Source: a virus. Taken from it: DNA of 64,000 nt. Where the stretch lies: the IMG/VR virus record IMGVR_UViG_3300044846_000719, positions 1 through 64,000 of that record; one strand, 5' to 3'. The notes under the pieces are model-generated. The model was given only the letters and a program-made list of their open reading frames with translations, was not told the DNA's origin and did not search any database. Positions 24,120 through 49,500 of this stretch are shown piece by piece; position 1 is the stretch's first letter; the number at the start of each line of letters is the position of its first letter. Both the position numbers and the translations under genes were made by a program.

Positions 24120-24788
24120 TTAATCTATGTAATATCTACTTATTTTATAATAAGATAATCCAGTAGATTCAGATGCTTCTTTCAAGCTTTTGTAAGTAAT
24201 ATTATTAATTGATATTTGTCTAGCATTAGAATTATTTGAACCTGTTCTTTTTTCAGACATTTTTAATTTTGTTTCTTGAGAGTGCTTACTTCCTTTTCTA
24301 TTAAAAGCTTTTTTATGTTCCTCAGACATATAATTTGATAATCCTTTATTCCATGCTTTATTTCCTAAGTTTTTTTCACTAATTATTTTTTTGATTTCGT
24401 TTGTATGAGTTTTTCCAAACATGGGATTTTTCTCTTTGGGATGACTTATTTTCTTTAAGTATTCTTGATATTCAGCAGTATCTTTTCTACCTATCCAAAC
24501 ATCTCCTCCAATTGATGTGTTTTTTAAGTTATAACTTAAAGAATCATTAGCAGCATCTGTTTCTATTAATATTGTTTCTTCATATTTTTTAAAATCAGGA
24601 CCTTGGTATAAAATTTCTCTTATAAATAAATTTAAACCATACTTTTTTAAAGCTTTTTTAATAAGAACCCCACTTGCAATATATCCATCGTCTATATCAC
24701 CAGCATGAGAACCTATATACCATTTATTATTTTGAGTATTTATCCATTTATAAACAAAACCAAGCTTATCTATTTCTATATTCATCAT
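24120..24788 (-). CDS. GIY-YIG homing endonuclease with NUMOD motifs
   Basis: This is a 222-aa protein. The GIY-YIG core is FVYKW followed by KWYIGSH, with the catalytic segment in YEETILIETD. A NUMOD3 DNA-binding stretch (NPMFGKTHTNEIKKII) follows, and a C-terminal NUMOD1-like segment (ITYKSLKEASESTGLSYYKI). It is a free-standing selfish nuclease. Its start overlaps the end of phoH by 23 bases. It differs clearly from the two other GIY-YIG genes in this window and is probably an independent acquisition. Confidence 0.85.
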   Translation of the reverse strand: MMNIEIDKLGFVYKWINTQNNKWYIGSHAGDIDDGYIASGVLIKKALKKYGLNLFIREILYQGPDFKKYEETILIETDAANDSLSYNLKNTSIGGDVWIGRKDTAEYQEYLKKISHPKEKNPMFGKTHTNEIKKIISEKNLGNKAWNKGLSNYMSEEHKKAFNRKGSKHSQETKLKMSEKRTGSNNSNARQISINNITYKSLKEASESTGLSYYKISRYYID

Positions 24789-26033: not shown

Positions 26034-26180
26034 TTATCTACCTTGTCCACGATATTTTGATTCAGGAGTAGCTTTTGGTCCAACGGACTTATGTGCTTTA
26101 CCCTTCTTTTTACTTTTACTAGGAGCTAAAGTTTTTGCTGAAACTGAACTACCTTTCTTTGGTTTTGCTGCTGGTGCCAT
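26034..26180 (-). CDS. Small, highly basic lysine-rich protein, 48 aa
   Basis: Forty-eight codons give a protein that is about a quarter lysine, with alanine, proline and serine (MAPAAKPKKGSSVSAK, SKSKKKGKAHKS) and no hydrophobic core. It resembles histone-like or nucleic-acid-neutralising tails. The sequence is short and lies between dcd and the secreted gene at 26149, overlapping the latter by 32 bases. It may bind DNA or RNA or be packaged in the virion; this is inference. Confidence 0.6.
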   Translation of the reverse strand: MAPAAKPKKGSSVSAKTLAPSKSKKKGKAHKSVGPKATPESKYRGQGR

Positions 26181-26622
26181 ATATATAATATACTGCATTT
26201 TTTAAAGAATGCTGCATAGTCTTATAGAAAAGCTTTTTGTTATGTGGTATTAGTCCTACTTCTAAGAACATAGCATTTAAATACATAGTCTTAGAATTTT
26301 CACCAGTGTAAGTTTTTCCATCAATAGTAACTTTAGTAACTATAATATATTTACGTTGTAAGAACTGCATACCTACAATATTTAATACTTGTTCAGGTAT
26401 TGCAATTGATACAATTTCACCGGTAATAATACTACCTGAATCACAGAGAGAGTACTTATCGGCAATAAGTTCCTCTAAAGTTGCTTTAGCTCCAAACTCC
26501 ACAGCTCTATCAGCTATGTATTTTATTGAAGATGAGTTAGTTACAGTGTCAACCTTGTAACATTGAGCGCTTAAATTGGCCATAATAGTAACGCCAAAGA
26601 TTAGTATAAATAGTTTTTTCAT
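26149..26622 (-). CDS. Exported hypothetical protein, 157 aa
   Basis: It has a clear signal peptide (MKKLFILIFGVTIMANLSAQ, with cleavage likely after the AQ). A beta-rich mature part follows (SGSIITGEIVSIAIPEQV, KYIIVTKVTIDGKTYTGE). No catalytic motif is visible. It lies 2 bases after the C-type lectin gene on the minus strand, and the two probably share a transcript. It is likely part of the surface cassette, perhaps a periplasmic partner. Confidence 0.65.
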   Translation of the reverse strand: MKKLFILIFGVTIMANLSAQCYKVDTVTNSSSIKYIADRAVEFGAKATLEELIADKYSLCDSGSIITGEIVSIAIPEQVLNIVGMQFLQRKYIIVTKVTIDGKTYTGENSKTMYLNAMFLEVGLIPHNKKLFYKTMQHSLKNAVYYIYGTSSKTKER

Positions 26623-26624
26623 GA

Positions 26625-27608
26625 TTAATAAGTTACTGCTCCAGCATAACCAGGAGCTATTATATATAGATTTAAAGTTTGTCCGGTAGTTAAGGTACCT
26701 GTTGTGTACGTACTAACACCTGGATAAGTTATACGTACATTAGTGGTTGCTGCTTTGATAGCATTGTATTCTGTTAAAGTAAAGATACGTACATCAGGAG
26801 CTATTCTCCACTTAGAAAACCTTCCGGCTTTTCTTGCAGCTACATAATACTTATCTGCCACAGATATTATTTTGTCATCATTGACATCAAACATATGGAA
26901 AGATAAACCATTTCTATTAGTCTTATTTAAAACTACATTACTTACTGCTTGAATATCTGTATTAGTGTAGGCTTGAATTCTAGTAGGGGCATTTACTTCT
27001 ATATAATATTCTTTAGAAGGATCATAAGCTTCTGATATAGAATAATATCCTGCTGAGTTAGTATAGATTGTTTTGTAGAGAGCCCAAGAAGAAGTTGTAA
27101 CTAAATACTCAAACTCTAGTACGTAAGCTAGATTATTATTATTGTTTAGGTCATTCCATCTACCATTAGATACAAACTGTACATAGTCTTCATTACCTGA
27201 GTTGTTAGGTTCCCCAGAGTTCCAGTTCTTATAAGAATAAGTCTCTCCTGTCACCCATCTCCAAGTTCCTTCTGTTACCTCATCAGTTAAACCAATCCAA
27301 CCAGAAGGCCATAAAGCGTATAGGAAATTTTGTTCACCTGAACTTGTAATGGTTACTAAGTGACCACCCATATTAGAACAGTTAGTTCTAGCTGTAGTCC
27401 AAGTAGCACTACCTGTAGAACGGTAATAAGAGTGTCCTCCATAGTTCTGTTGATTAGTGAATCCTGTAATGGTTTGGTTTGTTCTTCTGTAGAGCTTTAT
27501 AGCAACGTTAGAAGCACCGGAACCATTTGCATTATACATGTATCCAGAATAAGTAAACTGTGCACTTAGACTATTAGTAATAAATAATATAAGGATAAGC
27601 CATCTCAT
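26625..27608 (-). CDS. Secreted C-type lectin with dockerin-like module
   Basis: This is a 327-aa protein. Residues 1-17 are a signal peptide. A short beta domain precedes a C-type lectin domain (about 57-168) with WIGLTDE (104-110), TWRWVTGE (115-122), GEPNN (132-136, EPN being the calcium/mannose-type motif) and WND (151-153). There is only one cysteine, so the usual disulfides are missing. Residues 211-268 are a two-part dockerin-like module (MFDVNDDKIISVADKYYVAA, ending AGRFSKW). The same module with the same AGRFS-W end occurs in the 631-aa protein at 31075. Confidence 0.75.
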   Translation of the reverse strand: MRWLILILFITNSLSAQFTYSGYMYNANGSGASNVAIKLYRRTNQTITGFTNQQNYGGHSYYRSTGSATWTTARTNCSNMGGHLVTITSSGEQNFLYALWPSGWIGLTDEVTEGTWRWVTGETYSYKNWNSGEPNNSGNEDYVQFVSNGRWNDLNNNNNLAYVLEFEYLVTTSSWALYKTIYTNSAGYYSISEAYDPSKEYYIEVNAPTRIQAYTNTDIQAVSNVVLNKTNRNGLSFHMFDVNDDKIISVADKYYVAARKAGRFSKWRIAPDVRIFTLTEYNAIKAATTNVRITYPGVSTYTTGTLTTGQTLNLYIIAPGYAGAVTY

Positions 27609-29053
27609 AGTAATAACTTAGCTCCCATCAATATTTGGAAGTTTAATATATCCTGATTAGCAACATAAGTACCACCACCTGTAATTCCTATACCAAATGT
27701 CTTTGTCATTTTGTATGTAAAGTTAAAGAAAGGAATTATAATTGGTTTAGCTTTGAATAAAGATTCTGTATAATATTTAGAATAGGGAGAATAAATACCA
27801 GCTGCAATTATTGTAGCATCTATATGCTTAGTGAGTTTTCCCTTATACATAAAACCACCTATAGCAATTGTAGAGATCATAGTCTCTCCATATAGTTTAC
27901 CATAAGTACCGGCACCCCCATAAAGTGCTGTAAAATTTTTAACTGAGTTTACTCTAACAAATAAAGCTGTGTTAGAGATTGCATTAGGCATCAGACTAAG
28001 ACCATCTGATATAACATTAATATGCTTCACTCCTTTTGAGTTAGTACCAATCCATGACTTTACACAAGATACATTTCCTATCTTAGCATTAATCATATAA
28101 TCTGCTGAAAAACCAATAGATGCGGTACCATCACCCTTTACCCTTGTAAAAGATGCAGTACCTCTAGCATCTTGAGAACCATCTGCTTTTGTTTGAATAC
28201 CAACTATATCCCCTGTAACCAGGATAGCGGGTTTGGCAACCTCAGCTTTTGCTTTGCCGGCTGCCTTTGCAGTACTAGAAGACTGAGTCTTTTGTGTCTC
28301 AGTCTTGGTCTCCTCTACTTGTTTGTCTGAGGGTTTTTCGGTTTGTACTTCCGTTTTTTCTTCGGTTTTACTACCGGAGGAACCACTACTTCCTGAGCCA
28401 CTACTACCACTGGAGCTTCCACTGCTATTGCTTCCTGAACTACTTCCGGAACTTGAGCCACTGGAGCTTCCGCCATCACTTCCTGGGCTGCTCGGATTAT
28501 TTTCTGAGCTTCCTGTTCCCTGAGTTGGTTCTCCTCCTTCCGGAGTTTTAGAATCTGGATTACTATTATTGCTACTAGTGCTACCAGGCCGATTACTACT
28601 ACTTGATCCATTATTTTCTTTATTAGTTGTTCCTACATTAGTACCTGACGAAGTGCTAGATCCAACATTTACTCCAACACTACTTATACTACCAACGTTT
28701 GAGATGGCCCCTAAATTCATAACACTACTTATGATATTTAGAGTTGTATTTGTAGTAGTTGTCGTAGTAGTAGTTGTAACTATACCTTGACAGGGTGATG
28801 TACTTTTGTATTTCAAATATACACTATTTATCCAATTATCAAAAGTTCCATCTTGTAATTCTGTATATGAAAATGTTTTGACTTGACCATAGTAAGCAAT
28901 TACTATAGGACTAGACATATTTGCGTTAATAAATTTTAACTCTTGCGTGCAAGGGTCTTGGTATTGGTATATAAACTGTTGTGCTGCAAGAGATTTGCAA
29001 ACTAAAAAAATTAAAATAAAAATAACTTTTAATGTTTTTGTCCAAGTTTCCAT
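27605..29053 (-). CDS. Exported protein with Ser/Gly-rich linker and predicted outer-membrane barrel
   Basis: This is a 482-aa protein. A signal peptide (VIFILIFLVCKSLAAQ) is followed by a globular part and a nine-threonine run. A long Ser/Gly/Asn-rich linker comes next (about residues 145-240) and then a Lys/Glu/Ala-rich hinge. The C-terminal 200 residues alternate polar and hydrophobic strands with glycine turns (TIAIGGFMYKGKLTKHIDATI; TFGIGITGGGTYV; ending ILMGAKLLL), like an outer-membrane beta-barrel. The start lies 25 bases inside the homing endonuclease gene. It overlaps the lectin gene by 4 bases. Confidence 0.6.
   Translation of the reverse strand: METWTKTLKVIFILIFLVCKSLAAQQFIYQYQDPCTQELKFINANMSSPIVIAYYGQVKTFSYTELQDGTFDNWINSVYLKYKSTSPCQGIVTTTTTTTTTNTTLNIISSVMNLGAISNVGSISSVGVNVGSSTSSGTNVGTTNKENNGSSSSNRPGSTSSNNSNPDSKTPEGGEPTQGTGSSENNPSSPGSDGGSSSGSSSGSSSGSNSSGSSSGSSGSGSSGSSGSKTEEKTEVQTEKPSDKQVEETKTETQKTQSSSTAKAAGKAKAEVAKPAILVTGDIVGIQTKADGSQDARGTASFTRVKGDGTASIGFSADYMINAKIGNVSCVKSWIGTNSKGVKHINVISDGLSLMPNAISNTALFVRVNSVKNFTALYGGAGTYGKLYGETMISTIAIGGFMYKGKLTKHIDATIIAAGIYSPYSKYYTESLFKAKPIIIPFFNFTYKMTKTFGIGITGGGTYVANQDILNFQILMGAKLLL
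28315..28611 (-). other. Possible overprinted ORF in the Ser/Gly linker (membrane helix plus coiled coil)
   Basis: In the +1 frame of the linker-coding region a 98-codon frame starts with ATG at 28611. Its product has a membrane helix (VVVIGLVALVAIIVIQIL), then a charged coiled coil (KLRKEENQLREQEAQKII), an Ala/Val/Pro/Glu-rich stretch and a lysine-rich end (VKPKKKRKYKPKN). That is the layout of an inner-membrane spanin. The repetitive Ser/Gly codons necessarily give open Val/Ala/Glu frames, so it may be a by-product. Confidence 0.25.
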
Positions 29054-29670
29054 CCCTCTTTTAAATATTTTTCTATTTCTTCAGGTATGACTTTCTTTTT
29101 AATACCATCTTTACTTATATACTTTCTACCTAAACATACTGTTCTATTCCTAGTAGCATGTTCTATAGACACAGATTTTCCTTTTAATTTATTTTTTATT
29201 TTATCTTTTACTTCTTCTGATCTTTTTTTCCCATATATTGGATTATTGGAACCTTCCATCTTTTTTTTTAATTCTTCTTTTCTAGCTTTAACTTCTGTTT
29301 CAGAATACCAATTTTCATACTTCTTACCTTTTCTACCACTAGTTCTACCTTTACAAGACATAGATATTTTTTTCTTAGTCTCTTCTGTACGAGTAGAAGT
29401 ATTTCCATCTCCACCTAAAGTTAAATTTACTAATATTCCTCCATCTATCTTTCTTTTATATTGATTGATTAATTCTATTTCTTTCTTACATGCTTCTTCC
29501 CAAGTTAAATCCATATACAATATTTTTACTTGATATTCAGTTTTACTAACAATATGATTCCAATATCTATTCCTAGCATGTTTAGAATATGCTCTTCTTT
29601 CTGTTTTACCTATACCTATGTAAAACAATTCTTCTGTATCAAGTCTAGTATGTGAGTATACAATTGCCAT
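29029..29670 (-). CDS. GIY-YIG homing endonuclease with NUMOD3 motifs
   Basis: This is a 213-aa protein. The start MAIVYSHTRLD, then LFYIGIGKTERRAYSKHAR, gives the GIY-YIG core; the conserved glutamate lies in EEACKKEIELI. Two NUMOD3-type stretches follow (ISMSCKGRTSGRKGKKY, NPIYGKKRSEEVKDKI). It is clearly related to the protein at 34015, with the same VYxHxRLD start and FYIGxG core. It is inserted directly upstream of the 482-aa gene and overlaps its start. Confidence 0.85.
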   Translation of the reverse strand: MAIVYSHTRLDTEELFYIGIGKTERRAYSKHARNRYWNHIVSKTEYQVKILYMDLTWEEACKKEIELINQYKRKIDGGILVNLTLGGDGNTSTRTEETKKKISMSCKGRTSGRKGKKYENWYSETEVKARKEELKKKMEGSNNPIYGKKRSEEVKDKIKNKLKGKSVSIEHATRNRTVCLGRKYISKDGIKKKVIPEEIEKYLKEGWKLGQKH

Positions 29671-29687
29671 AAATTTTTAACAGATAA

Positions 29688-29713
29688 AGCTCTGACCTTT
29701 TATGGACAGAGCT
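29688..29713 (-). terminator. Hairpin between the CsgG-like gene and the homing endonuclease
   Basis: AGCTCTG and CAGAGCT (7 bp) flank an inner CC/GG pair and a short T-rich loop. On the minus strand it follows the stop of the CsgG-like gene and is trailed by TTTATC. It can act as a terminator for the upstream transcript or as a leader structure for the endonuclease; the T-tract is weak. Confidence 0.5.
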
Positions 29714-29721
29714 AGTATGCA

Positions 29722-29729
29722 CAAAGCTA
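29722..29729 (-). promoter_or_regulatory. Possible -7 promoter element upstream of the homing endonuclease
   Basis: The minus strand reads TAGCTTTG, fitting TAnnTTTG, about 50 bases before ATG 29670. The hairpin at 29688-29713 would lie in the resulting leader. No clear -33 element is seen, so the call is weak. Confidence 0.35.
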
Positions 29730-29740
29730 ATAAAAATATT

Positions 29741-30430
29741 TTAATTTTTAAACACACTTGCTTTAATGAGATTTTGAATCACATTAGTACAAGCAGTTTC
29801 AAGAGACTTACGGGTAGCTTTTCCAACAGTACTCTGGGAAAATTTCATGTCATCTAAAGATTTTAAGAAGGATTCACCGGTCTTGGTTGACTCACCCTCA
29901 CCAGAACCAATATAAATTTGGCCTGTTTTAGCGTCAACAAACCTAACTTGTAGACGTATGAAAGTAGTGACAACAACTTTTGCTTTAGCACCAGCAACTT
30001 GCTCGTCTTCATCAACAGCAAAATCAGCCACAGTAACATAAACAAAGTAGTGAGCAGGTTTAATCTTACCTTTTCCATCAATGGGTTCATCAAATACACC
30101 TTTTTTAGAGGCTTTAAATTGAGTAACCATTCTCTCTTTAATCTCTGATTTTTCCTCCGTGAATATAAATCTATTAGTTTCATCTAAATAATCCAGTACT
30201 GATTCAGCAAATCCAAGACCTACGTTCTTCTCCTGTAAAGCAGGATACAAACTTAAGACTTTTGTCATGTCTACACTAACTACTTGCACTGTCTTTTTAA
30301 TAGAATCAGTGTAGCCGGAAACTGTGGAGATATCTTTTACCTCTACCGGTTCAGCATCTGTAGTAGTTTTCATACTACCACATGCAAATAATATTGTTGT
30401 CAATAAGAGACTACCAAGGATCTTCTTCAT
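29741..30430 (-). CDS. CsgG-like outer-membrane lipoprotein
   Basis: This is a 229-aa protein with a lipobox (LLTTILFAC, lipidated Cys17). The mature part follows the CsgG/LpoB plan: GLGFAESVLDYLDETNRFIF, then KSEIKERMVTQ, then VRFVDAKTGQIYIGSGEGES. CsgG forms a ring channel in the outer membrane that exports curli subunits, and LpoB activates cell-wall synthases. Here it sits among exported phage proteins, so an export or outer-membrane anchoring role is plausible. It overlaps the preceding gene by 20 bases. Confidence 0.6.
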   Translation of the reverse strand: MKKILGSLLLTTILFACGSMKTTTDAEPVEVKDISTVSGYTDSIKKTVQVVSVDMTKVLSLYPALQEKNVGLGFAESVLDYLDETNRFIFTEEKSEIKERMVTQFKASKKGVFDEPIDGKGKIKPAHYFVYVTVADFAVDEDEQVAGAKAKVVVTTFIRLQVRFVDAKTGQIYIGSGEGESTKTGESFLKSLDDMKFSQSTVGKATRKSLETACTNVIQNLIKASVFKN

Positions 30431-30725
30431 CTACTTTAGGTTTAGTTGCTGGAGCAGGAGCAGGTGCGGGAGCAGCCTTTTCTTTGATGATAATGGTTTT
30501 ACCCCCACCACCAGTGTTTGCTTGTTGCTTTTGTTCGTTGTTCGTAGTAATGTTAATCACAGGTGCAGGGGCTGCTACAGCAGTTGGAGTTTCTGGCTTT
30601 TCATCTTCACCACCACCTAAGTGAGTAGCAAACCAAGCACCACCGGCTGTAACAGCAGTGGTGATTGCTCCAATAATGGTTTTTTTGATAGCGGACATAC
30701 CGCTCTCTTCTTTTTCTTCTGACAT
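30411..30725 (-). CDS. Small membrane protein with Pro/Ala-rich tail
   Basis: This is a 104-aa protein. A charged start (MSEEKEESGMSAIKK) leads to one membrane helix (TIIGAITTAVTAGGAWFATHL). A linker and an Ala/Pro repeat (KAAPAPAPAPATKPK) follow, and the end is acidic. The layout suggests a single-pass inner-membrane protein with a periplasmic linker, of holin, spanin or TonB-like type. It overlaps the CsgG-like gene start, so the two may be coupled. Confidence 0.55.
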   Translation of the reverse strand: MSEEKEESGMSAIKKTIIGAITTAVTAGGAWFATHLGGGEDEKPETPTAVAAPAPVINITTNNEQKQQANTGGGGKTIIIKEKAAPAPAPAPATKPKVDEEDPW

Positions 30726-30736
30726 GATATTATATA

Positions 30737-31078
30737 TTAGTTTTCTTCTTGTTTACTATATTTAGCAGCTATAATTTCTGGAGTATCGTCTTCCTCATCG
30801 GTTTTTTTAATTAGCATCTTGTCACGGTCTTCAGAGTTAAACCAATAATCAATAACTTTATTTAAGTTACCAACGAAGGCACCCAATAGAATAAGTAACA
30901 TTTCTTTCCAGTCATCCTCTATTTTTACTCCAACAAATACTGCTGAATTGATTCCTACTATGATTAAAGTAAATAACCCTAAAATTACTAACGTGATTCT
31001 CCACCTATTACTCTGCATTTCCTGCAGCATGTTATAGAATCTATTAGTATCAGGTTTTGTTGTTTCTATATTGCTCAT
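30737..31078 (-). CDS. Holin-like protein with two membrane helices
   Basis: This is a 113-aa protein. Two hydrophobic helices (WRITLVILGLFTLIIVGINS and EMLLILLGAFVGNLNKVIDY) are followed by a strongly charged tail (NSEDRDKMLIKKTDEEDD). That is the class II/III holin layout. The cell-wall-acting candidate at 33421 in the same operon supports a lysis function. The start overlaps the stop of the T9SS protein (ATGA). Confidence 0.55.
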   Translation of the reverse strand: MSNIETTKPDTNRFYNMLQEMQSNRWRITLVILGLFTLIIVGINSAVFVGVKIEDDWKEMLLILLGAFVGNLNKVIDYWFNSEDRDKMLIKKTDEEDDTPEIIAAKYSKQEEN

Positions 31079-32970
31079 TTGTTTACAATTATTTTAGAGT
31101 GTAATGATTCTGTTTCAGTAGTTACAGAAAGAATATAAATACCATCTGATAGACAATCTAGGTTTGCACTATACTTGTACTTGCCAGCTGGCATACGTTC
31201 TTTTAAAATAGTCTGTACACGTCTTCCTACTTCATCAGAGATAGACATATCTACATCAGATGCTTCTTTAATCTTAAACTGTATTTGTATATCTCCTTCT
31301 GTAGGATTAGGGAATACTATAATGGAGTTTAAGTCATTAAGAGAGATAGTTCCTTTGTTAATTCTACGTACCTCTACAATACCCATAGCCGGAATAATGT
31401 TCATATCTTTAGAGTTAGCGTCTCCTACATACTTAGCACCTGTCCAGAGAGCTGCAGTAGCCCAACTATCTTGTGGTTTTTTAGCAATAAACTGAAGTGT
31501 AAAAGCTTGCTCTCCATCATTAAGCATATTCTCATTAGTTAAATCAGCACCTCCCCAAGATACTAAACCATTAGAAGGATTAAAGAATGAAGTCCAGTTC
31601 ATTACTTTATCAGTGTTTTGTACTGCTTTAAATTCTAAGTAAGCAGTATCATACTTAAGATCTAATTGTAATGCACCTAACTTTTTACCATTAGTTAAAA
31701 CTTTAACCGGTACATTAACTAGGTTACCTTCTTCTACAGTTACTTTAGGCATATTTACCTCAATAGTTTCTGCAGGGAAATCATAACTTACAGTCTCATC
31801 AATGATGTAACGTTTAGCGTTAGCTGGATTAGTAATTTTAATAGGAGTTAAACGGGCCATTTTAAAGCCTGTAGAGTTTGCATCTCCTTTAACAGCCACG
31901 TAGTAAGTGATAGAATCATTACCATCTACACTGTAAGTAAAGTTATTTATAGTAGAGTAAGTAGAAGTCAAGTTAGAAGTAGCTCCATTAATTGCATTGT
32001 ACTCAGCAACTGTAAAGAACATTACATCTTTCTTAGAGTTAGGCCAAGCAGAGAATCTACCGGCTAATCTACCATATACAGAATATACATCAGCAATAGA
32101 AATATCACCGGCAGTTCCGTTTACATCCATTGTGTAGTAATCAAATCCGGTAGGAGTATATTGACCTAAGATAGATTGGTTAATCTTTTGTGCATCTGCA
32201 GTAGAGAATACATTACCTGGGATCATTGTGTCTCCCTTAACTACAATACGTACATCCCAATAAGTGGTATCTAAGAATTTCTTAAATACAGTAACACCCA
32301 ATGAGTTAGTCTTTTGTGAAGCAATCTGAGACCAAGTAGAAGAACCTTTAGCTCTTTTCTCTAAACTAACTGTTAAATTCTTAGCATCTGTACCGGTAAT
32401 GTTTTTAAACTTAGTAGCAAAGCGCAATACTTTCTGATTGAAGCGTCCACCATAAGAGTAAACTACCAAGGTAGTATCATTACCCCAGTTAGTGGCAGCT
32501 CTGTTAGAAAATGATTTAACACCAGCAACTTTCAAAGTCTTAATAGAATCTAAGTTGTTCCAAACTGTTTCACCTGCGTGAGTAAAAGTTAAATCAAATG
32601 TAGCTCCATTAGAATAGTTAAAAGTAGAACTAGATCCTGTGTAAGCCAAAGTAACTGTCAAGAATCCTTGTAGGTTACTATCTACATACTGAAGGTATTG
32701 ATCAGAAGCAGAAATCTTAAGAGAAGGTACAACTCCTGTAAAAGCAGTCTTATCATAGAATACACGGAATTGTATACCGGTAATCTTTTCTGATGTAGAT
32801 GTATTGTAAAAATGTAAAGGTGCAACAGTTTGTCCTACAGTAGTAGTAGCAACCTGATATCCTGAATCAATAACCACCCAATGACCTGTACCGGGTGATG
32901 TAGCAGAACTTTGTGCAAAGCTTAAAGAAGCTATTAAAGTTCCGAATAGTGTCGTAATCAATTTTTTCAT
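31075..32970 (-). CDS. Exported cohesin/dockerin-like protein with T9SS sorting domain
   Basis: This is a 631-aa protein. A signal peptide (1-20) precedes a first cohesin-like domain (about 32-175, ITGIQFRVFYDKTAFTG), a linker domain, a two-part dockerin-like module (252-310, MDVNGTAGDISIADVYSVYG, ending AGRFSAW) and a second cohesin-like domain (about 405-545, GALQLDLKYDTAYLEFKAV, then VSWGGADL). From about 550 there is a type IX secretion sorting domain (VFPNPTEGDIQIQF...GIYILSVTTE...SKIIVNK). It should be exported through the host T9SS and anchored on the cell surface. Confidence 0.75.
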   Translation of the reverse strand: MKKLITTLFGTLIASLSFAQSSATSPGTGHWVVIDSGYQVATTTVGQTVAPLHFYNTSTSEKITGIQFRVFYDKTAFTGVVPSLKISASDQYLQYVDSNLQGFLTVTLAYTGSSSTFNYSNGATFDLTFTHAGETVWNNLDSIKTLKVAGVKSFSNRAATNWGNDTTLVVYSYGGRFNQKVLRFATKFKNITGTDAKNLTVSLEKRAKGSSTWSQIASQKTNSLGVTVFKKFLDTTYWDVRIVVKGDTMIPGNVFSTADAQKINQSILGQYTPTGFDYYTMDVNGTAGDISIADVYSVYGRLAGRFSAWPNSKKDVMFFTVAEYNAINGATSNLTSTYSTINNFTYSVDGNDSITYYVAVKGDANSTGFKMARLTPIKITNPANAKRYIIDETVSYDFPAETIEVNMPKVTVEEGNLVNVPVKVLTNGKKLGALQLDLKYDTAYLEFKAVQNTDKVMNWTSFFNPSNGLVSWGGADLTNENMLNDGEQAFTLQFIAKKPQDSWATAALWTGAKYVGDANSKDMNIIPAMGIVEVRRINKGTISLNDLNSIIVFPNPTEGDIQIQFKIKEASDVDMSISDEVGRRVQTILKERMPAGKYKYSANLDCLSDGIYILSVTTETESLHSKIIVNK

Positions 32971-33419
32971 TTGTTTATATTATTTAAAGCGTGTTCTATC
33001 AACCAAGGTTCTGGGTTTGTTAATTTTTCTATGAAGTTTAACTCATACATATAACAAAATGTCTCTTCTTTTGCGGGAATAAGTTCTATCCCTTTTTTAG
33101 CTATGTACAAGTGAAGACTTTCATGTACTAGCACTACAGCAATATTATTTATAGAGTTTAATTTAATATCATCTACTGCTATGTAGATATGACCTAAACC
33201 ATCCTCTATTTGACATGAAGAGTAAGGACTAATCATAAAAGATATTTGATAACAATTTGTATCAAGCATCTTATACTTATCTATGTCTACTCTTTTTATT
33301 AGTTGAATTGCTGAATCAACTTTTAAATCCCAACCATCCCCGGCTTTGTCAATTTTTATTTGACTAAAACAAGGGACGGCTAAGATTATTAAGAGGCTAA
33401 ATAATAACCTCTTTAACAT
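32967..33419 (-). CDS. Exported HExxH metallopeptidase-like protein
   Basis: This is a 150-aa protein. The start is set at 33419 (MLKRLLFSLLIILAVPCFSQ), a proper signal peptide two bases after the preceding stop, although the frame is open further upstream. The mature part has VLVHESLHLYIAKKG, a zinc-binding HExxH at residues 99-103, and nearby glutamates (KEETF) that could be the third ligand. It is small for a peptidase. It may cut cell-wall cross-links or surface proteins. Confidence 0.6.
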   Translation of the reverse strand: MLKRLLFSLLIILAVPCFSQIKIDKAGDGWDLKVDSAIQLIKRVDIDKYKMLDTNCYQISFMISPYSSCQIEDGLGHIYIAVDDIKLNSINNIAVVLVHESLHLYIAKKGIELIPAKEETFCYMYELNFIEKLTNPEPWLIEHALNNINK

Positions 33420-33420
33420 A

Positions 33421-34008
33421 TTACTTAATGTCTTTAGACTCAATAAGAGTGTATGTAAAAGAATTACCACCCAATGCAGCAGCCTTCTTACAGATAGCCA
33501 AGAATGCATCAAAGTCAGCAGACTTCTTAAACACTTGACAACCTTCTGACCAGTTCTCAACATAAGTAGAGTCTGCACCAGCTTTATGAATGTTAATACC
33601 GAAGATCCCTTCTTGTATCTTGGACTCATCATAGTTCATGTCTTTATTAGCATCACGGTAAACTTTAACGTTAGCCTTTTGTTTAAGGGCCTCGTATTTG
33701 CCTTGGTGTAATGCAATGTGATGTGAACCTGAGTATTGACCAGGTACTAAACGTGCAACACCTGCAGCGTTATGGAATTCTTTAACTCCTTTAGTTCCTG
33801 GATCTGTAGTAGCAGGCCAGATTTTAAATTTCCACTCTCCACCTTCTTTGTAAGAAAGAGTCAAGTTGTCATCAAATACGTTAGTTACTTTAGTACCAGT
33901 GGCAGAGTTTCTAACACCAATAATGTTGATGTTAAAGTCTCCGTTTTCAAAGTACTTGTAACCTTTGGCTTTCATAGCCGCTTCAATTTGTTCTCTAGTA
34001 TAGCTCAT
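33421..34008 (-). CDS. L,D-transpeptidase-like (YkuD-type) putative peptidoglycan enzyme
   Basis: This is a 195-aa protein without a signal peptide. The segment GINIHKAG (His141) followed by NWSEGCQVF (Cys157) matches the H...S-x-G-C core of L,D-transpeptidase catalytic domains. The enzyme would use Cys157 to cut or exchange peptidoglycan cross-links. Without a signal it would need the holin to reach the wall, as classical endolysins do, so it is the best endolysin candidate in the window. It lies directly upstream of the HExxH protein gene. Confidence 0.6.
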   Translation of the reverse strand: MSYTREQIEAAMKAKGYKYFENGDFNINIIGVRNSATGTKVTNVFDDNLTLSYKEGGEWKFKIWPATTDPGTKGVKEFHNAAGVARLVPGQYSGSHHIALHQGKYEALKQKANVKVYRDANKDMNYDESKIQEGIFGINIHKAGADSTYVENWSEGCQVFKKSADFDAFLAICKKAAALGGNSFTYTLIESKDIK

Positions 34009-34011
34009 ATT

Positions 34012-34032
34012 AGTTTATAGTTTATAGTTTAT
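34012..34032. repeat. Tandem repeat, 3 copies of AGTTTAT
   Basis: Three exact copies of the 7-mer AGTTTAT plus a partial fourth lie at the junction between the homing endonuclease stop and the L,D-transpeptidase-like gene start. The repeat encodes the last codons of the endonuclease. It may mark the edge of the inserted element or be slippage-prone DNA. Confidence 0.75.
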
Positions 34033-34737
34033 AGTAAACAGTAAATAATTCCAGTTAGTCTTGCTTTTAACTTTTCCTTGGCAGTAAGATCTTAACTTGT
34101 TGTAACTTATTTCAGTAATCTCTGAAGCAATTCTGAGATTCTCATAAGTCTCTCCTGTTTCAGTATTGATTACTTGTTTAGACTTAGGATTATCTGCACC
34201 AAGTCTTACTGAATGTTTTCTATTCTTAAAAGCTTCAGAATTCTTTAAAGACTCTTTTATCTTAAGTTTAGTTTCTTCTGTAAGGGTGCTACCTAATCTA
34301 CTCTGTCTAAGTTTTTCTTTTGTTTCCTCAGAATGATTCTTTCCATAAAAGTGGTTCTTTTCGCCCACTCTTAATTTAGCTACTTCAGATAGATTCTTAC
34401 ACATAGATTCTGGTAAAGATTTTCCTGTCCAGTATCCAACTTCATGTCTCCAACCTAAAGTACCTTGACCTCCATCAGTCCAATTAACTAGACTACCTCC
34501 ACAAGTATCTACTCTGCCATACACACTTATCAGTTCTATTTCTTTTACACAAGCCTCCTCAAAAGATAAATCATCTAACATAATCTCTACTCTATACTCT
34601 GAGTTCTTTACAACATTATGCCAGTGTTGATTTCTACTTTTAGTTTGGTGTGCTCTAGAATAATTAGAATCTGTACCTAATCCAATATAGAAAGGTACAT
34701 TCTTATCTAACCTGATATGTCTGTAGACATAAGCCAT
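34015..34737 (-). CDS. GIY-YIG homing endonuclease, paralogue of 29029-29670
   Basis: This is a 240-aa protein. MAYVYRHIRLDKNVPFYIGLG gives the GIY-YIG core, followed by the conserved HWHNVV and FEEACVKEIELI segments, NUMOD3 stretches (NHFYGKNHSEETKEKL) and a NUMOD1-like end (ETYENLRIASEITEISYNKL). It is 27 residues longer than its paralogue, mostly at the C-terminus. It is inserted between two genes of the exported cassette with only 2 and 6 bases of spacer. Confidence 0.85.
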   Translation of the reverse strand: MAYVYRHIRLDKNVPFYIGLGTDSNYSRAHQTKSRNQHWHNVVKNSEYRVEIMLDDLSFEEACVKEIELISVYGRVDTCGGSLVNWTDGGQGTLGWRHEVGYWTGKSLPESMCKNLSEVAKLRVGEKNHFYGKNHSEETKEKLRQSRLGSTLTEETKLKIKESLKNSEAFKNRKHSVRLGADNPKSKQVINTETGETYENLRIASEITEISYNKLRSYCQGKVKSKTNWNYLLFTINYKL

Positions 34738-40570: not shown

Positions 40571-43500
40571 TTATAAATAACATTTTTTTATTTGTTCTAC
40601 AAAACTATTTTGATCACCACCATTGGTCTTTACATAATCTTTGTACTGATCTACAAAGTTAACCAATGAAGTAATATTTAAATCTTGTTTTATTTTATCT
40701 TTTTGTTCATCTGTAAGTTCCATAAAGAACTCACTAAGAACAGGATAATCAGTCCTTGCTTTAAACATTGCACCTATAGCAGGATTAAATGCCGCAGCTG
40801 GCACATTTGCTAACATAGCTTCTACATCACCAATCTCTGGTTCTTGAGCTTTAGGTGTTAAAGTCTTAGCTAATTCTGCAGGTGATTTTGCATCTGTTTC
40901 ATATGGTTTACCATCTTTTTCATATACAATCTTTTTACCCACTGTTTTAGCTTGAATACCATTAGAAGCTAAAGTACTATTAATATTAGCTGGAGCATTA
41001 CTAAGATCTATATTGCCTAATTGTTTATCTATATTGGCTGCTTGATCATCAATTAATTTATCAATATTAGTATCAGGCATTGCTCCAGGATTATTAAAGA
41101 CATCTTTATTCTTTCTATTAGCAAATAGCTGTGTACTAGTTGGTAAATTACCGGGTATTACAAACCCTGAAGCAAATTGTTTTTTAGAACCAGTTGAAAT
41201 AAATTTTTCATACTCAGCAGACACACCAAAAGCATACACATCACCAGGTTGAATAAGATCAGCTAAATTTTCTTTATTATCTACCCTATCTCTTTTTACA
41301 GTAGTTAGTTTATAATAAGTAATAAGTTTACTCTTATCTGAAAATTCTACTATTTTAATAACTAATGGAAAACCAATCTGTGTTTTTTCATCCTTATTTG
41401 CTAAAATAAAACCTAAAGCCTTTAAATATTTTAAATTGTATCTATATAATTTCTTACCTTCCTCAGTTAATTTAGATGGACCAGGTAGAGAAATCATAGG
41501 TTGTACAATCTGATAATTACCTTTACTATCTACAATCATCTCATCACCTTTGTAATTAGAAACATCACCTAAAGGAATCATTTCTTTTTCAAATTCTGTA
41601 TTTTTAAATACATTAACTTCAAGTTTATCATTAGCAATTACCATTGGGGATTTTAATTCTACACCAGAAGCAATATTTAAATCTTTTTTAAGTTCATTAA
41701 GTTGATCATTCTTACTAATCTTTGACCTTATATTTTTTGTAAAGAATGTTACACTAGAAGACTGTAAGAATCCTCTAACAAATTCATTATACAATTCATT
41801 AAGATTTACACCAAATGTTTTTACTACTAATCTATCATCAGCCTGACCTTTTAATGCGGTAACAGCAGAAGCAGATGAATTAAGAATCATTTCAAACATA
41901 AAGTTTGGCATTATTCTAATAAAAGATCCTGACTTAAACTGACCACCATCTTTAACTAATAAGTAATGGAATAAGTCAATTGCATATGGTCTAGTTAACT
42001 CATTAGTATATAACTCCATAAAGCTATACTGTATCTTATTAACTTGTAATTTACTTAATTTAGTCCAGTTATTAAACTCTACTTTATTTATAGCATCTTT
42101 ATTAGCTCTATTACCTGCAGTGATAGCAAACAAAAACTTGTTTACAAAATAGTTATTAGGGCTTAACTCTCTTAATTTTTTAACAACATCAGTTACATTA
42201 TCCATATTTTCAGGTAATGTACTTGCTGTCTGGTCATAAATCATTCCATTATTTAGAGAAGCAAGTGCTCTATTATAACCACCTTTCTTTAATATATTAA
42301 CATATGCTTTAATTGCAAAGAAAGAAATTAAGTTTTTATCTAAAGTATTTTTAAAATTTTTACGGTCTCTAAAATTAACGTCCGTATTTGCTATTACAAT
42401 ATCACGTAATCTATTAACCACTGGAGTACGGTTAAGCATGACACTACCCATTAAAGATTTAATTTCTCTATACACGGTAAAATTAAATCCAAATGTATTA
42501 TCTGAATTACGTAATAATGCACGTACATCAAATGGTATTGAACTAACTTCAAACTCTTTGTCATTCATTTCTAAACCTAAATCAACAGCTTTATTATAAA
42601 TCTCATCAAACTCTGTTAAATCTTTATTAGGTAGACCTTTGTTAAGTTTTAATATTGAAGATAAACTCATCATAGCATCACTTTGTCCTATAAGTACCTT
42701 AAAGTTATTAAGAACCGCTATTTGTACAGCAGCAATATTTCTTCTAATACCTTCTTCAAGATCTGCTGTTGTAATATTAGAAGGAACTTCAGTTACTTTA
42801 TATTCATCCATTAACTCTTTGATAATAGCTGTTTTACCTTTAATTCTTTCGCTATCTTTTGCATAAGATGATTTATTAGTTCTTAAACGTTTATAAAACT
42901 CATGTATTATAGGTTGATTAATAAATAATATACTATCATCTAATGACACACCCTGAGCAATCATATTTGCTACAATACCAAGAGAATCTATATTCAAACC
43001 TAATTTAGCAGCAAGACGTTCTTTAGCGTTATCTGTCATGGCTGATACTAAAGCTGACAAGATAAACATTATACGTTCACCATCATATTGTCCAGTTTCT
43101 GGATTATATGCTTGAGTCTCACCATAAGTATCAAACTCTTTACCATTAAGTTTAAATCTTAAGTTAGTAAGATCTATTTTCTCACCAGTTTCATCAGTAT
43201 AACTATTTGTTTTTCTAATTTTTATTTTATAAGGATTTACTACTGTATATACCAACAATGCGTTAACTGCAGCCCCAATATTTCTAGAACCTTCCTTATT
43301 ATTTCTAAATCCATAATATTTACCTAATAAAGTATCTACATTATATCTACCTTCTTCTAATTGATCTCTAAGTTCAGGAAATCTTTCAGTAAAGCTTTTA
43401 ACAATATCTTTAAGAGGTTGTACAGTTGCTACCTGGAATGCTTTAGGAATTTTTCCTTCTTCGGCAGTAACCATATCCGTATTGTTTAATAAAGCAATAC

Positions 43501-46500
43501 GTGCATTTACAATTGTATTATTAAGGGCCCCTTGATAAGGTTCATAACCTAACTTCTCTACTTTAGTATTATACTCATCTACATCAGCCGGTAAGTTTAA
43601 AGCTTTTAAAGTTGCTTCAATAATTTCTTTCTTATCAAGATCTAAAGTAGTAGCATTCTCATCAATAATATCTAACTCATCTAGATAATCAACAGCATAG
43701 TCTTTAAACTCATTAGCTTCTTTTTGAAAAGCTTGATAGTAATCATTATAAGTTTTTCTAAACTCTTTGTTTTTACTAAACTGATATTTTACAAACTGAT
43801 TAAACTTCTCTGTCTTAGTAGTTCCACTACCATAAGCTTTAAATTCACCATTCTCTACTAACCATTCTTGAATGGCTATGTAAAGTTTATCAATATCAAA
43901 GTCAGCTCCAGATATCTCAATAAGTTCTTGTGGAAATATTGCAGTAGAACCATAGTATACCGGCATAAAGTCTACAAGTTTAAGAGCAACTGCAGAGTGT
44001 TTATCCTGTGAAGGAGTACGTACTCCAAACATTTTAGCTATAGCATCTGGTATTTTATCACCTGGTTTAATAAAGCTCAACAACTCTTTAAAGTGAGCCG
44101 GCATAATAAACTCAGTAAAATATCCGGTAATCTTACCATTCTCGTCATACTCAGGTACGTTATGTCTAAGATCATCTACATAATAATCACCTACTTGTAA
44201 ATCATTATAGGTTCTATTTTCTAGATCAGCCTGAGTTTTAGGTGTGCCATACTTAGAAGGATTAGTTTTAAATTCTTCAACTCTTACAATCTCCCATCTT
44301 TTTGGCTGACCATTTTCATCTAACTCTAATACCTTTTTAAGTTGCTTCATACCAAAATCTGACATCAAAGCCACGGAATGTCCAGGTATTTTTTCAGACA
44401 ATACTCCTTTAGAGAAATAAGATAAGAACAACTCAACAAACTTATCAATAGTAATAGGTGAGTTAAGATCATACTTAGGTTCTCCTTGCTCATCTAGTTC
44501 AAAGAACTCAATCATCTGAGCATCACCAGCTGAAGACTTTAATGTCTCAATTGCATATCTTTGGAATGCAGCAAGTTTAGGAGTAACAGATCCAGCAGCA
44601 ATAGATTTTCTAACTTCATCAAATCCTGTGTCAAGTGTAAAGATTGCATTTCTTTTTCCAATATAATTAACTTTAACCCTATTAATAGATGCTTTTTTGT
44701 AGATTTCTTTAAGATCACCAACAGTAATCTCAGTACCCATAAAGTCAACTGGTGTATCATCCTTTTGTTCAGTGGTAATAATTGTCTTAATCTGGGTTGT
44801 ATCTGTAATTATAATCTTATTAGAAGGATTCTCTAATTGTAATCTCCAGTATTTAGTATCAGTCTCAATAAAGTTTCTATCAGTAATACTATATACATCA
44901 TTAGCCACATTTACTTTTTTACCTTTAGATGCAGATACTGGAATAGCTAAACTTACAGTTTCTCTATCTTTCTCATAAGCTTCTAATGTATTACGTAAAC
45001 TATGTAACTCTTCTTTACCAGGTAATGCATATTGAAAGTTTTTACCATAAGATGTAAGTTCTTTAGTAAGAACTACACCCGATGTCTTAATATATGTCTG
45101 ACCATCAAAGTATACTAACTTAATAGAGTTAGTAACAGCATTAAATGATATAGCTCCTTTTGTCTTAGCATTGCCAAAAAAGAAATCACCGGTTACTGCC
45201 TCACCTTTTTCAATCTTATTTAATAATTCATTAAGTATAGGAGATAACTTACCAAGACCATGTGATGTATAACGTAAAGCTTTTACAGTCATCCACATCT
45301 GGGCATCCGCTTTATCTTTTTTACCACCAGCAAAGTTAGCTGTAAACTTAGGATCAGCTATAGTAACAACATGAGCAGTTTTGAATGCATGCATAATACC
45401 TAATTTTTCATCTTTAATAGCTGATGAAATATTAGAACCTGTAGCATTTGATCCTCTAGCTCTTTTAATCTCATCTACAGTATCTTTAAATGATAGAGCA
45501 TGATCACCATGCATTAATTGGTTAATAGCAGTTGTATTAATAAAATCATTTAGATAGATCTGAATAAGATTATATCTATAGTCATTATCTTTTATATTAT
45601 AAAGACTATTTTTAACATCATCCTTTACTTTCTTAAGAGTTTTAGATTTTTTTGAGTCCGCCTCTTTTTTAATTATTTTAAATCCTTTAGTCAAGAAACC
45701 AGATATTGCACTATCCGTTATTTTATTTTCGTCATTAACTTTTATAACGTTCTCTAATTTTAATAATTCTATAATAGCATCTACCTCCTTTAATAAAGTA
45801 TTAATAGCTTCTGCTTTAATTTGATTCTTCTGAGAATCTGTTAATGGTAAATTTTTCTTTGCTTGCTCTTCTAAATCATTCTTAAAATCTTCGGTTAATA
45901 ATTTATCAGTCTTAAACAAAGTAAGACCACGCATTTTTCCAGTATTATAATCATAGATTTCTTCATCAGTTTCTTCAGTTGCTACTCTTCTTATACGATT
46001 ATACTCCTGTTCTACAAAACTAAGTATTGCATTTTTAGCTTCATCAGTAATAATATTGTTATCATTAACTTTTTTAACAGCTTTAACTATTGGAAGATTA
46101 ACTATGTTACCAGTATTTGATGCTTCTAGAACACGAATTAAATGAAAACTATCTGCAAATTTCTTTTTATTTACTTCTCTAATTTCTCCAGCACTATACA
46201 AATCAATAAGAGTGGTAATAAATTCTTCAGGAGTATAACTACCATAGGTACTTCCTTCACGTCTATTAACTTCTAACTCTTTGTTTTCAATAATATCTCC
46301 TTCTCCAGTTTCTATAAGACTACTAACTTTTTGACCATCAATTCTTTTAACATTAATTAAATTTAAAATATCTTTAAAATTGGGATTATTTAATAAAAAG
46401 TTATCCCGTAAAAATTGATCCTCTAATAATTTATCAATAGCACCTGCTTTTTTAATCTCATTCATCTTAACTAAATGATAAGATGGTAATTGATGAACAT

Positions 46501-49500
46501 ATACTAGTTTATTTTCAGCATTCTTCCAGCTAGTAGCATATACAGATTCATCAAATACAGTATTAGCTTTTGCAATATTATAAAGACGAGTTGTAGCACC
46601 ACCAGAAAGAATCTCAGTTTCTTTAACTATATCACCAGTTTCAGTATCTACTTCTGTATCATACTCTAAATTAATAAATGGATTTTCTTCAGTCTCAATT
46701 AAGTTTTTAATCTTATCTATATCCTCTCTATCTATCGGTTTTACCCCAGAATAAAGATTAAATAAAGTAAGTTGTTGAGGTGTAAGTTTTGAAGTATCAA
46801 TCATATTTACAATTGAATATGATAAATACATACCACTCAATGAAATACCTAGAACTTCCATTAAATCAACTGATAATTTATTAGTAATATTTACTAACTT
46901 ATCATCAGTATATTTTTTAGTTGGCTCCATTGCATTTCTTAAATTTTTTAATACAGTTGTAGCTTTTTTCTTTAACTCAGGAGTTAATTTACTTTCATAA
47001 ACATTACTATATGCTTGAGACCACTGATCAAACTGTACTTTACCAGAATCTTTTCTATTTGCAGATATAATGTTAGTAATCTGTTTCTTAGTATCTTTAT
47101 TAATAAATAAATAGTCTACAGCATGTTGACCAAAACCTTTTATAAAAGATTGGAATAAATAACTATTTTTAACATTCTCTAAATTTACATTACCGTCTTC
47201 ATCAAATGTTACTCCTGTCTGAATAAAGAATTCCTCAATAACTTTACCAGACTCAAAGTTTCTATCTTTATATAAATTAAGTTTTAAAAGAATCTCTTCC
47301 GTATCCTCTGTTCCAGCAATTGCTTGTAAAATACCATTGTATACAGTAGATCCATCTACAGATTGGACATAAGGCGTACCATCTAAGAACTGTTTATTAC
47401 CAAACTCATCAGCTGCCTGATATGTAATAGTAGATATCCAAGATCTCAAAAACATAGATAAACTACCAAAACCACCTACAGAAGCAGCACCTTCAGTATA
47501 ATTAAAGGCAGCCTTATCTCCTAATAAAAGTTTACGTTCTTCATCTTCATTAGCCTCATTAGTTTCTTTAATACCTAAGATTGCTAAATGCTCTCTTACT
47601 GATTCTTTAAGAATGTTTCTATTTTCAATTTTGCTGAAGATTAATTTATACTCTTTTAATTTATTTAAAGTTGCAGTATCTAAATCAACATACTGATCTA
47701 AATTAGGATTATAAAGCTCCTCATAAATATCTAATACTGAATCTAGTAACTCATCTGTATTAGTTTCTTTAGTGGCGTCCTTAAGTTTGTTATTATAGAT
47801 AGCAGCTACAGTTGCAGATAATCTAGTACCCTCTTGTTCTGGTAAATACTTATCTACTTTTATATAGTTAACCTCGCCTTCAGCAGCAAATGTAGAATCT
47901 TCAATAATATCTGTACCAATCTTAATAGCTTTAAGTACCGGCTCACTTATATCAAATGGAGAGTCTGTAAATCTATTAGTAACTACTTTACTATTTCTAT
48001 ACTTACCGGCATCAATATTATCAAACAAAGAATTTAATTCATTCTTACCAAATCTGCTAAATACTTTCTTGATCCACTCAACTATTCTAGCAAACAAACC
48101 TTTATTTACATAGTTAGTCTCTGTCTTTTTATTAATCTTCCATTCTTCAAACTTATCAGCAAGGTATTCTTCATACATTCTTTCCTCTAATGCTGACTCA
48201 CTCATTGCTGCATAAAGAGGATTTAATAAACGCATCTCTTCTTTAGCTAAAGAAAAAGACTTACCTTCTTTACGCAACTGATCTCTTAACTCTTTTTTAG
48301 CAATTGTTAAGTATCTAGATATCTGAGCATCACTTAGTAACAAACGGAATACTGCGTGGAAAGCTTCATGGTATTTAAAAGGAGAACTAGCAGATGTATA
48401 GATAGTACCATTAACTTCTACATTACCGGCTACATTAGACAATGAAGATACAAATGCACCTACAGTCTTACCACCATTATATAAGTTAGTCTTAAGAGTA
48501 TTTAGATCTTCTACAGTAACAAAGTCAGGAAGATTGTTTTGGGCCCAAGTTAAGAACTCAGTTAAATTAGTTATATCAGATTCAGTGTAACCAGCAGCTA
48601 CTACTTTAAGACCCATGCCTTTAGACAAAACTTCTATTTGTCCTTTAATAGCTAGAACCTCTGGAGAATTTTCCGCTTGTATTCTAATTTCTTTTTTATC
48701 AGCAGTAGTTAACTCACCTTTCTCAGCAAGTTTTTCAGCTCGTAATCTGTCATTTACCTCGTCTGTTTTGGTATCAACTTGAGCTTGCAACTGCTTGATC
48801 TGCTGAGGAATAGATTGTTGAGCAGCTAATACTCTAGTTAAAGCATCTGCAGAACTTACTTGAATAGGTTTAGTAGATAATTGAGTAGTAGCAGCTAGTT
48901 CATTAAGTTTTTTAGTTGCGTTATTTAATCTTTCTATTCTTAAAGCAGCATCTTGATTATTGGCTTTTGCTGTTAACTCTACATTCTTTTCATTCGGGGG
49001 AGTAAATTTACCATCTTTACCAAATGCTTTTTCTGCTATATACTTACCATTTACTTCATAGTTCTTATCTACAACAGCAGCTATCTTATCATTATCAAAT
49101 ACTACAGCAAAAATATTATTTCCTAAATTATAGTATTTTGCATCTTCTCCTGCAATCTCAGATAATGGTCTACTTCCACTTATAGTTCCATATTCTGTTT
49201 TTTCTATATCAGCTCTAGCATCTGTAGGTTGAGCAGAAACAACTGAAGGATTAACTGGTGCAACACCTCTTAATAGATCTGGATTAAACGCAGAACCTGC
49301 TGGTGCATTACTTAAATCAAGATTATTTATATCAACATCAGTAGAACTACGATCTTCATTACTTACTTTTACTAATAGTGGATCTGCCTGGACATCAGAA
49401 GCTGATTCAAGCATAGTTACGTATACAGATACATTTTTAACCACATTGGGCCCAACACTAGCTTCCATATCTAATACTTGTAATGTATTAATAGTTTTTG

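Follow-up and report, generated by a model that had tools for sequence, protein, structure and literature searches.

Curli operons, consisting of CsgG, CsgF, and curlin repeats, have been described in pelagiphages and in phage Melnitz, where they have moved between unrelated phages and where their purpose is unsettled (PMC7029224, PMC9599517, PMC9004378). The accessible parts of two other studies report phage cargo of the type IX secretion system (T9SS) as single proteins, one in Cryophage (PMC7468147) and the other among the BACON/T9SS open reading frames (ORFs) of crAss-like clusters (PMC6949934). Here, we analyze a 64,000-nucleotide stretch of viral DNA (positions 1 to 64,000 of IMG/VR record IMGVR_UViG_3300044846_000719, hereafter the window) that carries a six-gene set defined by synteny: a 631-amino-acid (aa) cohesin scaffold with a T9SS tail, a 104-aa protein, a 229-aa protein that likely belongs to the CsgG superfamily, a 482-aa protein, a slot occupied here by a 327-aa lectin, and a 157-aa protein. 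We think it probable, while well short of certain, that this set serves to display phage-encoded proteins on the surface of the infected Bacteroidota cell by means of the host T9SS and a phage CsgG-family pore.

Like the curli operons, the set groups genes for a CsgG-family protein, small membrane proteins, and putative surface adhesins in a phage operon, and it moves between unrelated phages, but it uses T9SS and cohesin/dockerin modules rather than amyloid. No CsgF, CsgE, or curlin repeats were found in the set, which rules out curli (type VIII secretion) proper, and the other five core families have no detectable relation to the curli operons. The pelagiphage operons are the nearest analogue in function, with only CsgG possibly being related. 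As in the Cryophage and crAss-like reports, a phage gene ends in a T9SS sorting domain that presumably engages the host system, whereas those reports, in their accessible parts, mention no cohesin–dockerin scaffold, CsgG-like pore, or constant six-gene set. The set also resembles cellulosome scaffoldins in having cohesin and dockerin-like domains on anchor, adaptor, and cargo, and its transthyretin/immunoglobulin (Ig)-like module ahead of the dockerin-like one recalls the X-dockerin pairs of cellulosomes. It differs from them in that the cargo is a lectin or another binding domain, the anchor is a T9SS sorting domain, the parts are phage-encoded, and the binding is predicted; and whereas dockerin-bearing carbohydrate-active enzymes are a criterion of cellulosomes, one of the two modules of each phage genome belongs to the scaffold and the other to a binding protein that is not an enzyme. 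A preliminary description of this DNA knew of no phage system of this kind, and our search for phage combinations of cohesin/dockerin, lectin, and T9SS, which left most subscription journals and preprints outside its reach, likewise found the set undescribed.

The scaffold (31075–32970, on the minus strand like all genes of the set) consists of a signal peptide, a first cohesin, a transthyretin-like module, a dockerin-like module, a second cohesin, and a T9SS type A sorting domain. The preliminary description had placed two cohesin-like domains and a T9SS sorting domain in this protein and a C-type lectin in the 327-aa protein; both ORFs are present where it located them, their N-termini resemble signal peptides, and the profile searches agree with all three domain assignments. 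Pfam Cohesin (PF00963) matches the 631-aa ORF in two stretches with an E-value of 2.3e-10 (41.3 bits against a cut-off of 24.1). The second cohesin (31399–31764) is above the Pfam cut-off in the genome profile search, and the first (32512–32847) is weaker at 18.9 bits, with the corresponding domain exceeding the cut-off in some relatives. Between them lies the transthyretin-like domain followed by the two-repeat dockerin-like module (32053–32439), whose second loop reads DVNGTAGDISIAD; in profile searches of the Protein Data Bank (PDB), residues 177–243 of the family match transthyretin-like proteins (2igl). The sorting domain (31084–31317) aligns with positions 1–75 of the 75-position Por_Secre_tail profile (E 2.1e-11) and exceeds the cut-offs of both PF18962 (44.4 against 27 bits) and the NCBIfam model TIGR04183 (37.6 against 23 bits). 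It is above cut-off in all 24 relatives of the protein that we examined, and the PDB profile matches of the family include T9SS sorting domains (8glk). The AlphaFold model of the scaffold has a mean predicted local distance difference test score (pLDDT) of 67, and a Foldseek comparison with solved bacterial cohesins, some of them from cohesin–dockerin complexes, places a cohesin fold in it (6kgc_A, TM-score 0.83 by target length, root-mean-square deviation 2.1). Purifying selection acts on the scaffold and CsgG-like genes, with ratios of nonsynonymous to synonymous substitution rates of 0.01–0.26 in eight pairs. A 636-aa homologue from an uncultured phage has an entry in BFVD, where its name is taken from the sorting domain alone.

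The 327-aa exported protein (26625–27608), identified by profile search and alignment, matches Lectin_C (PF00059) with an E-value of 4.5e-18 (66.4 bits against a cut-off of 22.6) through a C-type lectin domain (27120–27407) that carries EPN and WND motifs. These motifs mark calcium-dependent binding of mannose-type sugars, and among the C-type lectin heads EPN is found in 81/81 and WND in 80/81. At its C terminus is a dockerin-like module (26739–26978, loop DVNDDKIISVAD), and it is this module that the preliminary description had proposed to be shared with the scaffold. The sharing is clear: the 327-aa and 631-aa proteins are 34% identical across 136 aa (E 1e-14), and hhalign of the module profiles from the lectin and scaffold families gives an E-value of 3e-30. 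A transthyretin-like or Ig-like stretch precedes the module, which has two EF-hand-like repeats. The second loop has the canonical form DVNDDGxISxAD in most lectin-slot members (e.g., DVNDDGIISVADKY); the first is degenerate save its last Asp, and the scaffold loop frequently has one extra residue. Across 25 modules from both proteins, only D24, D47, N49, and D59 are invariant, and these correspond to the last Asp of the dockerin first loop and to positions 1, 3, and 12 of the second loop, so that by position they are dockerin-type calcium ligands.

Support for identifying the module as a dockerin is weaker than support for its being shared. Dockerin_1 (PF00404) matches 4 of 24 relatives of the 631-aa protein (best E 3.9e-4) and 8 of 27 relatives of the lectin (best E 0.0068), these matches spanning E-values from 3.9e-4 to 0.1, with a relative at one locus (L014) reaching 17.0 bits against a cut-off of 22.9. 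The best PDB match of the module profile is the ScaB dockerin at an E-value of 0.018, with several other dockerins lower in the list. We call the module dockerin-like because Dockerin_1 matched in some relatives only and because of the level of this best PDB match. The two could instead be separate exported surface proteins in which the modules are structural, calcium-stabilized units such as occur in many Bacteroidota surface proteins, with the lectin acting alone. The sub-threshold dockerin score of the window proteins and the existence of cohesin folds outside cellulosomes (2xdh) fit this explanation, but the calcium ligands being the sole invariant residues of the module argues against it, as do several observations given below, and we regard it as unlikely.

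Scans of IMG/VR identified relatives of the 631-aa protein on 192 contigs and of the lectin on 64, and a scan with a csgG profile confirmed at least 534 relatives. The set is thus present on hundreds of phage contigs, and many aquatic viruses of Bacteroidota-type bacteria have it. All six genes are present on one strand in 85/85 distinct csgG loci, counting only those in which the 229-aa gene is far from the contig ends, with a median span of 6.4 kb. Because the other genes could bias the selection of loci, we also used CsgG-only queries, and all six genes were again found on one strand in 45/45 distinct loci. The set occurs in three gene orders. Among 80 close loci, many of them on short contigs, the PhoH and dUTPase neighbors of the window are found in 7 and its 1763-aa gene in 3, and the 29 Immutovirus-type loci share none of the window flanking genes that were tested. 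The set thus sits on different phage backbones and is mobile. A close-pattern scan of 84,980 species genomes returned a single contig, 16.5 kb long and phage-like, in a metagenome-assembled genome (MAG) labeled Sphingomonadaceae, and a plasmid search for relatives returned only the shared T9SS tail. A set-bearing phage contig, L143 (RFPL01000028), was binned in a MAG labeled Sphingomonadaceae; a host of this family is unlikely because the T9SS tail is present, and a binning error is the probable explanation.

In 20 of 20 phage records, there is one T9SS tail and there are two dockerin-like modules, all within the set and each pair accompanied by a cohesin scaffold, which is difficult to reconcile with unconnected surface proteins. 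Of these records, 16 have two cohesins, two have a single one, and the remaining two have a pair and a weak third hit located elsewhere; the cohesins above the Pfam cut-off are confined to the scaffold. These counts also bear on a further possibility, namely that virions freed by lysis bear the proteins as a coat or attachment and so adhere better to the glycans of particles or mucus. Virions carrying Ig or lectin domains that bind glycans have been described, among them ones with lectin-tipped tail fibres (PMC12386605). The set, though, has Sec signal peptides and a T9SS tail, and since the dockerin-like modules and above-cut-off cohesins are confined to it, no virion docking site of such a kind is seen in these records. 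We give a virion coat the least credence of the explanations considered here and think it very unlikely.

The head of the lectin-slot protein is exchanged while its anchoring part is kept. Heads found in this slot are a C-type lectin, a C-type lectin with an inserted laminin-G domain, PA14, GEVED, or unassigned (in proteins of ~400 aa), and different heads occur between phages whose scaffolds are 95–98% identical. Loci L035 and L045 match at 97.2% identity across 5.2 kb of one flank and at 97.8% across 6.4 kb of the other, while the middle of the lectin gene is unalignable. The C-terminal dockerin-like module is still 64–83% identical in head-swapped pairs, and such retention of the module is a further point against the lectin acting alone. 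From the alignment, the binding head appears to be inserted in the transthyretin/Ig-like stretch. We found no RVT_1 reverse transcriptase in the 96,656-base record, which is possibly incomplete, so the variation looks like whole-domain recombination rather than retroelement mutagenesis. A diversity-generating retroelement was ruled out as the source on this ground and because whole domains are replaced, not single positions. Heads that are exchanged rapidly on a constant anchor would suit a glycan target that varies. In two head-swapped pairs (L053/L080 and L077/L087), the 482-aa protein is 79–87% identical, with divergence spread along its length, while its other neighbors are 98–100% identical; the third pair, L035/L045, shows no extra divergence of this protein. 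This is a hint that the 482-aa protein may co-adapt with the head. A PA14 domain is also encoded in the curli operon of HTVC008M (L228, KC465899; record positions 10884–11174), in a protein annotated as hypothetical, and parallels the PA14 heads.

An isolated phage, vB_FspM_immuto (NC_055915), carries the whole set as gp013–gp019, annotated merely as lectin, cohesin, and hypothetical proteins. Its host, Flavobacterium sp. LMO8, is in culture. Both immuto and the window have the whole set, but the 160-kb immuto genome has a different backbone, lacks the 113-aa gene of the window, and has a split scaffold, each half with its own signal peptide. One half, gp014, contains a cohesin-like region followed by the transthyretin-like and dockerin-like parts, and the other, gp015, contains a cohesin and the T9SS tail, both above cut-off. 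The same split recurs in Immutovirus-type contigs. A split scaffold would make sense if anchor and adaptor rejoin through cohesin–dockerin binding, and the presence of these parts as separate proteins is a further argument against modules that are only structural.

The 229-aa protein (29741–30430; lipobox LFAC) is a candidate outer-membrane pore. Pfam CsgG (PF03783) matches 6 of 34 members of its family, and the only member above the gathering score is that of locus L118 (22.4 against 20.8 bits, residues 69–223 on profile positions 30–197 of 210). It is on these distant relatives that membership in the CsgG superfamily, which we consider likely, is based. The eleven best Foldseek matches of its predicted model are all CsgG (4uv2, E 8.5e-4), followed by other small lipoproteins. 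The 104-aa protein (30411–30725) has one predicted membrane helix and a Pro/Ala-rich tail ending in a C-terminal Trp. This Trp terminates 132/132 distinct sequences (EDPW, EESW, etc.), with the tail otherwise variable, and looks like a fixed docking signal. The 482-aa exported protein (27605–29053) has a conserved N-terminal domain, a Ser/Gly/Asn-rich spacer, and, judged by eye, a possible beta-barrel C terminus, and the 157-aa exported protein (26149–26622) belongs to no known family and is assigned to the set by co-inheritance. Searching the PDB with profiles of the CsgG-like, 157-aa, and 482-aa families yielded nothing usable and no relative of the 482-aa protein, and none of the six core genes had an informative PHROGs match. 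The roles suggested below for the 482-, 157-, and 104-aa proteins follow from co-inheritance and location signals.

These genes could alternatively form a module for lysis or for breaching the envelope, in which the CsgG-like lipoprotein and the 104-aa protein are an outer-membrane pore or a spanin-like pair timed with the endolysin and the surface proteins are helpers. The genes for the inner-membrane 104-aa protein and the lipoprotein do overlap, endolysin and holin-like genes lie near the set in the window, as they do in 46 of the 80 close loci, and a similar proposal has been published for the CsgG pore of phage Melnitz (PMC9004378). However, in the 29 Immutovirus-type loci no gene resembling the holin or endolysin genes of the window adjoins the set, the endolysin of immuto itself is ~6 kb away, and 85 of 123 distinct CsgG-like proteins have a lipobox but 38 do not. 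A lysis function also leaves unexplained the lectin, cohesins, and T9SS tail, whose constancy equals that of the pore gene. We consider such a function improbable, less so than a virion coat and more so than separate surface proteins.

If the set is a surface-display system, the exported proteins, having signal peptides, would first cross the inner membrane by Sec. The host T9SS would then carry the scaffold over the outer membrane and attach it via the sorting domain that we identified. The lectin, which has no T9SS tail, would exit the periplasm either as a passenger bound to the scaffold or through the phage CsgG-family pore, which might be assembled with the 104-aa inner-membrane, 157-aa, and 482-aa proteins. 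At the surface, the dockerin-like module of the lectin could dock in a calcium-dependent manner on a scaffold cohesin, and the dockerin-like module of the scaffold could bind the second cohesin of a neighbor to form chains or a coat. In immuto-type phages, the anchor (cohesin and T9SS tail) and the adaptor (cohesin-like and dockerin-like parts) would have to rejoin non-covalently. The exposed head, whether an EPN/WND C-type lectin or a swapped PA14, laminin-G, or GEVED domain, would bind glycans. The gain would likely be either that neighboring cells or particles are held close or that receptors are masked against rival phages or for superinfection exclusion, and the data fit both.

Several observations weigh against this display system. 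Pfam Dockerin_1 does not match either window protein. Beyond the degenerate first calcium loop of the module, the second loop of the scaffold has an insertion in the window and is degenerate in immuto, and the first cohesin of immuto is weak at 13.9 bits. The 229-aa window protein has no Pfam CsgG match, its family profile is not significant against E. coli CsgG alone, and its predicted model has a pLDDT of 44; because of this low confidence, we take the Foldseek result for it as supporting evidence only. We infer that the host of the window phage belongs to the Bacteroidota from the T9SS tail and from the host of immuto. In addition, endolysin or holin genes are neighbors of the set in most lineages, and this arrangement would also fit a role in lysis.

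Even so, display on the infected cell is the reading we favor. The preliminary description, taken as a whole, is partly supported: its idea of a phage-made surface assembly gains support at the level of sequence, and to it we add a partner of the CsgG superfamily, the exchange of lectin heads, and three further genes that are constant. Of the outcomes that it named as refuting, a predicted fold other than cohesin and a C-terminal domain without a T9SS profile match were not observed. More tentatively, and with rather less confidence than an even chance would carry, the set may be a widespread, horizontally moving, envelope-spanning phage machine that combines a cohesin–dockerin coat and interchangeable glycan-binding heads with a phage CsgG-family exporter and the host T9SS, and this would be the first viral cellulosome-like assembly.

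Other ORFs of the window lie in or near the set. A 113-aa membrane protein (30737–31078, minus strand) is accessory and is missing from the Immutovirus clade. An exported ORF with an HESLH motif (32967–33632, minus strand), possibly encoding a zinc metallopeptidase, adjoins the set in many loci in either orientation. ORFs that by eye resemble GIY-YIG/HNH homing endonucleases (29029–29670, 34015–34737, and 24120–24788, minus strand) interrupt or flank the set and occupy different places in it at other loci. Further away, a 4687-aa ORF (40571–54634, minus strand) lies between structural and lysis-side genes and, together with a family B DNA polymerase, recalls crAss-like phages.

A surface program of six genes and 6 kb is seldom retained whole by phages with unrelated genomes, so the set probably confers a strong advantage during infection. 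The pair of cohesin and dockerin-like modules could serve as a compact surface-display tool for Gram-negative cells, and because immuto has a cultured host, the function of phage-encoded surface adhesins is directly testable. The curli operons and this set may answer one need, that of changing what the infected cell adheres to, and the set would then be a second means of doing so, with little relation to the first.

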